Notes under the pieces: model-generated
Database searches by the model: none
The model's input: only the letters and a program-made list of their open reading frames with translations
What the model was told of the DNA's origin: nothing
Shown here: piece after piece, positions 57,193 through 64,000 of the stretch
Numbering within the stretch: position 1 is the stretch's first letter
How the letters are laid out: each line of letters opens with the position of its first letter
Position numbers and translations under genes: made by a program
Assembly (NCBI GenBank): GCA_002189035.1
Contig: NEEC01000010.1
Span: 1,488,001 to 1,552,000 of the forward strand
Length of the DNA stretch: 64,000 nt
Source: Utricularia gibba
Lineage: Eukaryota > Streptophyta > Magnoliopsida > Lamiales > Lentibulariaceae
Reading direction: 5' to 3'

Positions 57193-59172
57193 TCAATCAC
57201 TGAGAACACCATGCTCGGTCTTGTCTCCAACGGATGAAGAAGAACGACGGCGGAAATTTGACGGCCACCTACCACTCTCGTCGCCAAAGAACAAGTCGGA
57301 TAAGTGGTGACCAACGTCCTCAGGGGCATATCTGAGAATTGCCGCAGGATACCTTTCACTCTCTATCACCTTCTTCGCGTTCGCGTCGTAAAACTCGCGG
57401 TACCGATGGAATATCCCGTTGGCGATGGCGGTTTTTATCTGATCGCGGAGCTTGTTGTCCGGTACGACGCAGGCGCAATGCTTTCTGTACGCGTCGTTGA
57501 ACGACGAATTAAACTTCTGGAAATTGTCCCTGATCTTCTCCGGCGTCATGTCTCCCTCGCTGATGGATTCCACCACGCGGTTCCATCCTAGCCGTTGGTA
57601 GTTCGCCGCGAACTGCTTCACTTTCGCCTCGTGGTTTGATATCCATTCCTCGCTTAGGAGGTATTTCAGATTCGATGTACGGACTTTCCTGATGATGTAC
57701 TGGAGGTTGTTGGCGAGGAAGAGATACGAGAGGGAGACGTCCTTGTAGTGAGTCGCTTTGGCGTCGAGCTTGCAGAGGAGGACGAGAATCAGCCATGCCA
57801 TTTTCACGGAGATCGGCGGCGACGGCGACGCCGCGTGTTCGAATGATTCCGGTAGCGATTTCTTCGGTTGGGACTCAGTGAGTATATCTGGCAAAATATC
57901 GGTGTAATCCGCGAGATAGGTGAGATAATCAGTGGCATCGATGGTCAGTTGGTGGATCCCGGCGCCAGCGGTGCCTTTTCTGGAGGAATCTCTGAGAATG
58001 GAGGACTCGAAATCGTCCACGGCCTCGCGTATGAACTCCGCGAGCTTCATTAGCGATGTGATAGCCTGCGACTTAATGGGATTCGTGGATTTTGAGGAGA
58101 AAATGGAGTCGATTTCCGGCCAGAGTTTGGCCATGGCGGCGTACATATCCAGGGCACGGTGACCGTTTTCCGCTTTCTTCTTGGTATTTTTAGCAACTTT
58201 CTCCGGAAAAGCGAACAGAATCATCGCTCCGTCTTTGGTGACTTCTTTGAAGCAGGATTCTCGGACATGATCGCCGTTCGTGAAAACGGTATCGCAGAGG
58301 ATTCTCTCGCCGTTAAACAGAGTCTTCACCGCCATCGTCATGGCGTTAGTCCAATTACAGACTTTCAGATCCAGTGTGTCCGAATCCATTTTCTGGATCT
58401 GGGATGAGGTGAGTTTCTCCACTCCAAGCTTGTAGATCCCTTCGTCGACGATTGACTTGCGAATCGCTGCGTAAATCTTCAAGCAATCCTCCGCGAAACC
58501 TGTCGACGTCATACATTCCGCGATCATTCTAAGATCGGCAATGGCCGTCATCGAATCGTCTTCGATTTCACTGTTCGATATCGAATCGACTTCTCCTTCC
58601 TCTTCTTCTTCTTCTTCTTCATAATCCGACATTGACAGTCTCGACGCAAAGGAGGTTCTCCGAGAAGATCTCGCTGAGATAAACTTTGGATCAAGATGAG
58701 CGCGATTCATCGACAAAATCTGGTAAAACTCCTTTTGAAGCCTCCTCATAGCGATGTGCATCAGATTCTGCGCTCGGATCATCTTATCAGAGATCTTACT
58801 CGCCGTTTCCATCGCTATAAGATGCATAGCCTTACGCAAATTCATAACGCACTTGACGAACTCCACCGCCTCGCGTCGATTTCCGGCGAAGAGAGCAGCG
58901 GAGGAGGTGTTGATGTTCCATTTCATAATGAGTGGCTCCGCCAATTCGAGACTCCTGTCGGCGGCCATATCGGAGTAGCTTCGCCACGTCGGGGCGGCGA
59001 ATCGCGACGGAGAACCGTAAGAGGAAGGTGAAGTGGAGGACTTGGGGGAGAAGAAGAGGCTTCCCATTCCTTCCCCGTGTCCGTAACTTGGCTCCTTCGC
59101 TCCTTCCTCCAAGTGAGCGAGGAATGGGAGCCGCTGCGGGCGGCATTTGTAGGCGGACGCGGACACCGACAC
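57193..59172 (-). CDS. exocyst subunit EXO70 (intronless, 659 aa)
   Basis: EXO70 targets the exocyst to PIP2-containing membranes for vesicle tethering; plants have many paralogues used in secretion, immunity and autophagy. A single exon from MSVSASAYKCRPQRLPFLAH to TEHGVLSD. Family blocks: CVMNLRKAMHLIA, RRLQKEFYQILSMNRAHLDP, DLRMIAECMTSTGFAEDCLK, IYAAIRKSIVDEGIYKLGVE, KLWPEIDSIFSS, DATDYLTYLADYTDILPDIL, LFLANNLQYIIRKV, KFNSSFNDAYRKH, LRYAPEDVGHHLSDLFFG. The intronless structure and Ser/Pro-rich N-terminus suggest the EXO70H clade, at low certainty. An eight-Glu run (58590-58620) is encoded by a GAA/GAG microsatellite. Confidence 0.93.
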   Translation of the reverse strand: MSVSASAYKCRPQRLPFLAHLEEGAKEPSYGHGEGMGSLFFSPKSSTSPSSYGSPSRFAAPTWRSYSDMAADRSLELAEPLIMKWNINTSSAALFAGNRREAVEFVKCVMNLRKAMHLIAMETASKISDKMIRAQNLMHIAMRRLQKEFYQILSMNRAHLDPKFISARSSRRTSFASRLSMSDYEEEEEEEEGEVDSISNSEIEDDSMTAIADLRMIAECMTSTGFAEDCLKIYAAIRKSIVDEGIYKLGVEKLTSSQIQKMDSDTLDLKVCNWTNAMTMAVKTLFNGERILCDTVFTNGDHVRESCFKEVTKDGAMILFAFPEKVAKNTKKKAENGHRALDMYAAMAKLWPEIDSIFSSKSTNPIKSQAITSLMKLAEFIREAVDDFESSILRDSSRKGTAGAGIHQLTIDATDYLTYLADYTDILPDILTESQPKKSLPESFEHAASPSPPISVKMAWLILVLLCKLDAKATHYKDVSLSYLFLANNLQYIIRKVRTSNLKYLLSEEWISNHEAKVKQFAANYQRLGWNRVVESISEGDMTPEKIRDNFQKFNSSFNDAYRKHCACVVPDNKLRDQIKTAIANGIFHRYREFYDANAKKVIESERYPAAILRYAPEDVGHHLSDLFFGDESGRWPSNFRRRSSSSVGDKTEHGVLSD

Positions 59173-61040
59173 CGTGTGGGGATTGGACCTCAGGAAGCAG
59201 ATTTCTCGGAATTATTTTCCTTTTCCCCGACTTTTACCAAATCCTGATTCAACGACACGGGATGACGTGGCCTCACCAAATGATGACGTGGCTGAATCCC
59301 TTTGATCATACATGACTATGCCAATTAGCAAAGTAATTAATAGTTCCTACTCCCCCAGATTCTGATCATAGACTATTTCCAAGGAAGGAAAGAATAGATA
59401 GATCTTCTCTTAGAAAAAAATAAATAGAAGATATAATTTTTTACTATAAAAAAAACAACAACCATACAAATTCTCTGTGTAGAAAATATTTACTGTCATT
59501 AAATTTGAGGTGAAACTTCCTACTCCATAAAAACCTCTCTAGGAATCATCATTAAATGTCTCAGTAAAATTGTGTTTTCAGATATGCTGGATGCAAAAAG
59601 TGGAGACTTTCTTCCAAAAAAAATGTCGGATACATGGGTATTTGTTCTGGAATTTGGACTCCACATGACCCATCGGTTAACCGCTAACTTGAACTGAATT
59701 AACCGATATCTGAAAAAAAAAACGATACATAAAATTATCAAATCATTATTATTATTTATTTTATTTGATTTTGATGCCATTTTATCATTTTTTTTTATTA
59801 TATTTATTTTATGCTCATTAACTTCATATTGAAATTATTTTATTATTATATAATATTTATATGTTGATTTTTATTAAAAACTCAATTGATACTTTATACA
59901 AAAACATTTAAAATATTTTTTTTTAACAAACGGATAAATCGATACCATCACAAAAACCGTCCGATACAGGTAATATTTGTTGCTCTGATTTCGGAAATTA
60001 GGATTTAATTTTAGTTATGAATATTTGAAAATTAAATTAAGGTTCATTCAATGATGTTTAATATCATAGAAAATTGTAGCCTAGGAAGAATAAAAGTGGA
60101 GTGTTGCGAGTTTGCTTCTCTAAAATTTAAGAAATAGGACTTGATTTTCAGAATGGAATTTCTAAAAAAAAAAGATTTTACATCCTTTATACACGGTATT
60201 TATACTGAAAATAATCTCTAATAATTAGAATGGAATCACACTTATTATTTACTTACCAAATAAGTTACAAAATTCTATTTTATCTCGTAAAGTAATTAAT
60301 ATTTTGATGATGAGGCTTGCAGTTTACTCCTTTGACTGGGCTGCCCCATTTTTTTCCGTGTGTTGTTAATAAGGTTTAATTTCCTGTATTTAAACACATA
60401 TTTCCTTTTTCCAGATTCGAATCCAGTGAAGCTTGGTTCCACCACAGACTTGCCACCAATCACCCAAAAAAGTGCATCTCAGAAAAACTGCCAAATGAAA
60501 ACATGTACATGTCGTAAATGCAGTCCACCGTGTACTGTACAGATTCAACTATTAGATACATGGATTTGAAGACATATATACGTATTCACGTATATATATC
60601 TAAAATTAAAAAAATAAGAAAAAAAATATGAAATTATTATTATTCAATAAACTAATTCAAATTTTCAATTATAGTTTGATTTTATTTCACTCGTGATTGT
60701 GAGGATTAGCTTTTTTGATTCTCTTTTAATTTATCATGCATAATATATATTAGTCAAACTAGGAGATATTGATTATAGAGATAAATATGTGTTAAGTATA
60801 CTAATTTATTATTAAATAATCTTGAAAGTGAGTTTACTTAATTGGTTAATATTCATCTTGATATTTCCGATATCATATTTCTTTTTTAAATATTGACGTA
60901 TGTAGTATTTAAATATTTACATATTTGATTTATTATTTTATTATTAATCATTACATTTAAGATTTTATATATTAAGATAATTTTTTTATTTTATTTTTTA
61001 AATATATTAATTTTTAATAAATATGTTTATTTTATACACA
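59173..61040. other. AT-rich intergenic region
   Basis: Almost 1.9 kb with no convincing gene. The ORFs at 59520-59780 and 60360-60569 are short and without motifs. The EXO70 promoter should lie at the left end, where TGACGTGGC occurs twice (about 59261 and 59283), separated by 13 bp; such ACGT cores are known bZIP sites. Confidence 0.5.
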
Positions 61041-63009: not shown

Positions 63010-64000
63010 ATGAAGCAACTGCATAAGCAGTCTACAAGCGCCCGTAAGGATGAGGAGATGCCGTTTCATGAAACCCCGCCTTCCTCGCCAAAATCCTACA
63101 AGAACCCTAGATCCATCCCGCGATCACTCAATTACATTATCAAAGAGCAACGCCTTCTGTTTGTTTTCCTCGGGATCTTGATTGGATCCACATTCTTCGT
63201 AATTCAGCCTGCGCTTTCCCGTCTTTCCTCTTCAGAAACTCGCGTTCGAATTTCCAGCACGTTCCGTGAATCAATTGATACCTATGGCAATCAAAACCGG
63301 TATGTTTATCGGGCAGGTAGGGTCCCGGCAGCGATTGGGAATCGGAGGAAACGGATTCTTGTTACTGGTGGAGCTGGGTTTGTGGGGAGCCATTTGGTTG
63401 ATAAGTTGATCTCCAGAGGGGATGAAGTTATTGTGATTGACAATTTTTTTACTGGAAGAAAGGAGAATGTGGTGCATTTGTTTGGGAATCCAAGGTTTGA
63501 GCTTATTAGGCATGATGTGGTGGATCCAATTTTGCTGGAGGTGGATCAGATTTACCATTTGGCTTGCCCTGCTTCTCCTGTGCATTATAAGTATAATCCA
63601 GTCAAGACAATCATATCCTTTTGTACTTGTTTATCTGCTTAGGTTGTCTTGTGTGCACCTTCTGCTGCAATATGGATCATTGGCATGTTGTATCTGCTGA
63701 CTCTGTTCTGTTCTCATGGATATATTTTTCTGTAGAGTGATTTGCGTCATACTGTAAATGAGCTTGGTGTCCTTGACATATGATAACAAGACAAATGTCA
63801 TGGGAACACTGAACATGTTGGGTCTTGCTAAGAGAATTGGAGCAAGGTTCCTCCTTACTAGCACAAGTGAAGTTTATGGTGACCCTCTGGAGCATCCTCA
63901 AAAGGAGACATATTGGGGACATGTGAACCCAATTGGTGAGTAATGCTATTTATTTGGTACCACTCCTGGTTCTCTGGCTAAAATCATGGTTATCAGGTGA
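63010..64000 (+). CDS. UXS: UDP-glucuronic acid decarboxylase (UDP-xylose synthase), membrane-bound form, 5' part
   Basis: It converts UDP-glucuronate to UDP-xylose with bound NAD+, for xylan, xyloglucan and proteoglycan synthesis; this form is a type II Golgi protein. Exons 63010-63612, 63788-63935 and 63997 onward (cut by the window end). The start is [20 protein letters not shown]; the upstream in-frame extension has no family resemblance. TM anchor: [17 protein letters not shown] (about residues 43-59). NAD-binding motif: [19 protein letters not shown]. Then [50 protein letters not shown], and after the intron [40 protein letters not shown]. The YxxxK catalytic pair lies beyond the window. 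Intron 1 is of the U12 AT-AC class. Confidence 0.95.
63613..63787 (+). other. U12-type AT-AC intron in UXS
   Basis: The donor is ATC/ATATCCTTTT, a full match to the U12 AT-AC 5' site. The branch-point element TCCTTGAC is at 63770-63777. The acceptor is GATAAC/AAG, with AC at 63786-63787, 11 nt past the branch A. Phase 0 joins NPVKTI to KTNVMGT exactly as in UXS proteins. Confidence 0.95.

Follow-up and report, generated by a model that had tools for sequence, protein, structure and literature searches.

The gene that begins at the downstream end of the analysed stretch of the Utricularia gibba genome (64,000 nucleotides, hereafter called the window) has a first intron with AT and AC at its ends, which raises the question of whether this is a U12-dependent intron and what its removal by the minor spliceosome would mean for the supply of UDP-xylose. 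The gene continues in the same contig (C304) to about position 65232, exons being joined past the window end, and its seven joined exons encode a complete UDP-xylose synthase (UXS) of 438 amino acids, starting MKQLHKQ. Residues 116-349 form an NAD-dependent epimerase domain (Pfam Epimerase/GDP_Man_Dehyd), and the closest solved structures (PDB match) are those of human UDP-glucuronate decarboxylase 1, 4gll (E 6e-137) and 2b69, which bears out the first-pass annotation of the gene as UXS. Homology extends across the whole domain and the product carries the GGAGFVG, TSTSEVYG and CYDEGK (YxxxK) motifs of a UXS with the SDR Rossmann fold. A hydrophobic stretch, located by inspection near residues 49-65, is a candidate N-terminal membrane anchor, and a hydrophobic stretch is likewise found at 49-65 in Populus UXS1 (PMC3629030). 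Exons 3-6 (80, 84, 75 and 93 nt) are identical in length to those of Populus UXS1 (PMC3629030), and thus the gene is, on homology and exon structure, a Golgi-type UDP-xylose synthase (UDP-glucuronate decarboxylase). The features of the gene within the window are listed in Table 1.

Table 1 Positions in the window of the exons, introns and splicing signals of the Golgi-type UXS gene
Feature	Position	Strand	Basis or remarks
UXS exon 1, coding part	63010..63612	+	ATG at 63010; membrane anchor (candidate), GGAGFVG NAD motif; ends ...NPVKTI, phase 0
U12-type AT-AC intron 1	63613..63787	+	175 nt, phase 0; motifs, frame-restoring junction, paralogues
U12 5' splice site ATATCCTTTT	63613..63622	+	Sequence; pairing potential with U11 and U6atac
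TAG stop on intron retention	63640..63642	+	Intron nt 28; product shortened to 210 aa
U12 branch element TCCTTGAC	63770..63777	+	Branch A probably 63776, at a distance of 11 nt from the final intron base
3' splice site, terminal AC	63786..63787	+	Sequence
UXS exon 2	63788..63935	+	Starts AAG ACA AAT, ends in phase 1; kept in paralogues and human UXS1
UXS intron 2	63936..63996	+	U2-type GT-AG, ordinary, 61 nt
UXS exon 3, first bases	63997..64000	+	Remainder outside the window

Exon 1 ends with ACA ATC at 63612 and exon 2 opens with AAG ACA AAT at 63788. The donor at 63613, ATATCCTTTT, conforms to the 5' splice-site pattern ATATCCTT, and a search of both strands of the 64 kb gave a single exact ATATCCTTT. 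The branch element TCCTTGAC is close to TCCTTRAY, its A lies 11 nt from the 3' end (about 10-15 expected), and the intron terminates in AC with the reading frame preserved. The joint pattern of donor, branch element and AC was found once in the 64 kb, compared with 0.04 occurrences expected per strand in 64-kb random sequence of the same dinucleotide content. The coordinates, donor, branch element, terminal AC and 11-nt spacing proposed in the first-pass annotation were all confirmed on the sequence, as was the false stop on read-through, an in-frame TAG.

Every pair of junctions around the site that keeps the frame and introduces no stop was enumerated. Only three placements, CA-AA, AT-AC and TA-CA, which are one junction shifted base by base, restored the conserved protein at KTI/KTN (the slash marking the junction), and AT-AC is the only one of them that belongs to a known splice class. 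The KTIKTN sequence is invariant in five UXS paralogues and reads KTLKTN in human UXS1 (4GLL). The motifs and the enumeration together uphold the assignment to the U12 AT-AC class with a preserved coding frame. The earlier statement that the intron splits the NAD-binding region is loose: the junction corresponds to residues 201/202, within the Rossmann/Epimerase domain (Pfam 116-349) and about 80 residues beyond the GGAGFVG motif. The 210-residue product of intron retention is without the catalytic residues.

Searches of the same genome at the protein and DNA levels identified, besides the gene in the window, two Golgi-type UXS genes (on contigs C3 and C451) and two of the cytosolic type (C304:1.181 Mb and C451:1.071 Mb). 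Both additional Golgi-type genes have an intron at the same codon, KTI/KTN, in the same phase, with the ATATCCTTTT donor and an AC end; the branch element is TCCTTAAT in these two genes, compared with TCCTTGAC in the window gene. These introns (C3:3679658 and C451:2221167) are shorter, 82 and 71 nt respectively versus 175 nt, and the distance from the branch A to the intron end is 13 nt in C3, 12 nt in C451 and 11 nt in the window gene. Conservation of a U12 site at the same codon, suggested earlier as a check, is thus found among the paralogues, and the recurrence of the same AT-AC intron in two of them makes a chance origin of the motif set very unlikely. The interiors of the three introns have diverged, so the U12 motifs look as if they were kept by selection, and the conservation of the AT-AC U12 intron in both Golgi paralogues is good evidence of function. 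None of the other introns modelled across the five UXS genes contained a U12 branch element, and their ends were GT-AG or GC-AG. The intron at 63613-63787 is almost certainly a true AT-AC intron of the U12-dependent class that was already present in the ancestor of this plant's Golgi-type UXS genes.

Use of U2-type GT-AG or GC-AG sites, with the AT-AC motifs present by coincidence, was considered highly improbable. In-frame pairs of this kind do exist, for example at 63601-63790, with loss of VKTIK, and at 63591-63762, with replacement of about ten residues, and all Populus UXS introns have been reported as GT-AG (PMC3629030). However, none of the 71 in-frame GT-AG or GC-AG pairs near the site restored the conserved KTIKTN protein, and two diverged Golgi UXS paralogues carry the AT-AC motif set at this codon as well. 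Since forced GT-AG or GC-AG choices delete or replace conserved residues, the earlier suggestion that gene finders which force GT-AG mispredict this gene is plausible. The Populus tomentosa gene PtUXS1, which is of the same class, has an exon 1 of 609 nt followed by an intron 1 of 135 nt, and its exon 2 is reported as 145 nt, compared with 148 nt in the window gene (PMC3629030). An AG acceptor one codon downstream (AAG/ACA, 63790 in the window) would result in an exon 2 of 145 nt, as in the Populus report. Either the lineage really differs or the published Populus junctions were forced to GT-AG.

Some AT-AC introns are U2-type, and the intron could in principle have AT-AC ends and yet be removed by the major spliceosome. 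This is very unlikely, because the donor and branch element are full-length U12 elements that are kept in three paralogues and are complementary to the U11, U6atac and U12 RNAs of the genome, and because the U2 spliceosome recognises AT-AC introns poorly (PMC7367187). Genes for these RNAs scored above the Rfam cut-offs and have intact recognition sequences (U12 86.2 bits, U6atac 86.9 bits, U11 74.2 bits). The 5' end of U11, UAAAAGGGU, can form 8 bp with the donor ATATCCTTTT, U6atac (GAAAGGAGA) can form 7 bp with it, and the U12 snRNA sequence GAGUAAGGAAA is complementary to the UXS branch elements. There is equally little reason to regard the window copy as a decaying UXS1-like gene in which the intron has no consequence, since the 438-aa frame is complete, all motifs are present, the other splice sites are normal and exons 3-6 match the Populus UXS1 lengths.

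From the splice signals and these pairings, we infer that the minor spliceosome removes the intron at 63613-63787. U11 would recognise the donor and U12 the branch element, U6atac would take over from U11 at the donor, and excision would bring ...KTI and KTN... together within the Rossmann domain. Were the intron retained, the stop 28 nt into it would truncate the enzyme before the catalytic Ser, Tyr and Lys residues, so that unspliced mRNA would be expected to yield no enzyme. The genome also contains a gene of the CENATAC/CCDC84 family, the human member of which, CENATAC, promotes the splicing of AT-AN minor introns (PMC8280824). For U4atac, no match in the genome exceeded the gathering cut-off and a permissive search gave sub-threshold matches only; the best of these weak matches (L038) resembles a tRNA, and weak matches carry no weight here because the permissive search also matched 11 of 14 prokaryote controls. 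A negative result of this search does not demonstrate that the gene is absent. Genome-wide, strict AT-AC U12 patterns numbered 3 and 6 with two spacer ranges, compared with 1 and 4 in the reversed control, counts that are too small for any conclusion.

Arabidopsis has 81 AT-AC introns in a total of 119,097, or about 0.1 % (PMC5716242), in agreement with the rarity claimed earlier, and among U12 introns phase 0 is comparatively infrequent (PMC7367187). The intron shares with the AT-AC subclass of U12-dependent introns the donor ATATCCTTTT, a TCCTTRAY-type branch element, the 11-nt spacing and the presence of U11, U12 and U6atac genes in the genome, and no tested difference in kind from the subclass was found. 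The literature already describes well the conservation of U12 introns, their conversion to the U2 type and the errors of gene prediction at non-canonical splice sites (PMC2426677, PMC7367187, PMC5716242). By its motifs, the intron at 63613-63787 is real, well formed and of a well-understood type; it is ordinary and of modest interest. Literature searches on UXS with U12 or AT-AC gave no paper naming this intron; the Arabidopsis catalogue of Zhu & Brendel (2003), which was outside their scope, may list it. The practical result is a correction of gene models, in that each of the three Golgi UXS genes should have its KTI/KTN junction annotated as AT-AC. The genome also offers an internal contrast, three Golgi paralogues with the U12 intron versus two cytosolic genes with a U2 intron, for following the retention of minor introns in a single arm of a pathway.

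In both cytosolic UXS genes the same protein stretch is interrupted (K/TIKTN) by a U2-type, phase-0 intron, which lies 6 nt upstream of the position of the U12 intron. No U12-type intron or motif was found in either gene among the introns modelled, namely those after the first N-terminal intron. The K/TIKTN intron is GC-AG in one of these genes (L033, about 1095-1225) and GT-AG in its sister.

The first-pass annotation had also proposed a dependence of UDP-xylose supply on minor-spliceosome efficiency. For the supply as a whole this was not supported, given that none of the introns modelled in the cytosolic UXS genes is of the U12 type and given the UDP-Xyl levels of the Arabidopsis uxs1uxs2uxs4 mutant (PMC6018967). 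In this triple mutant, which is without the Golgi class and luminal UDP-Xyl synthesis, UDP-Xyl was little changed, and in the stems of Arabidopsis most UDP-Xyl is supplied by the cytosolic UXS enzymes (PMC6018967). With U12 introns confined, among those modelled, to the Golgi class and cytosolic UXS supplying most of the UDP-Xyl in Arabidopsis, a minor-spliceosome defect would be expected to hit the luminal branch only; at most, the luminal UDP-xylose branch would depend on minor splicing.

Every Golgi UXS found in the genome, and no cytosolic one, has the U12 AT-AC intron, which suggests the unlikely possibility that the minor spliceosome selectively tunes luminal UDP-xylose (and UDP-arabinose) with the cytosolic pool exempt, and that the cytosolic intron 6 nt away is an ancient U12-to-U2 conversion in which both splice sites were shifted. 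Such a conversion with a 6-nt shift is possible but found no support, since 14 % of random positions would fall as close as 6 nt or less to a cytosolic intron. Of six Golgi UXS intron positions, two are exactly common to the cytosolic genes and three are offset, by 6, 2 and 8 nt. The chance that three of the four non-shared Golgi introns lie so near to cytosolic ones was estimated post hoc at about 0.017. These near-coincident positions may reflect sliding of introns or their repeated gain at neighbouring sites.

The C3 Golgi-type gene is without the last intron (alignment position 1107), which is kept in the other two Golgi-type genes. In the C451 Golgi-type gene (minus strand, about 2221.4-2221.8 kb), the N-terminal frame from the likely ATG misses the conserved frame, and a one-base frame break, read by eye, is located close to a run of GCCCC ahead of the Rossmann domain; this is either an assembly error or a real mutation. 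Elsewhere in the window, the minus strand contains one open frame of 672 aa at 57193-59211, which may encode a plant exocyst EXO70 subunit.
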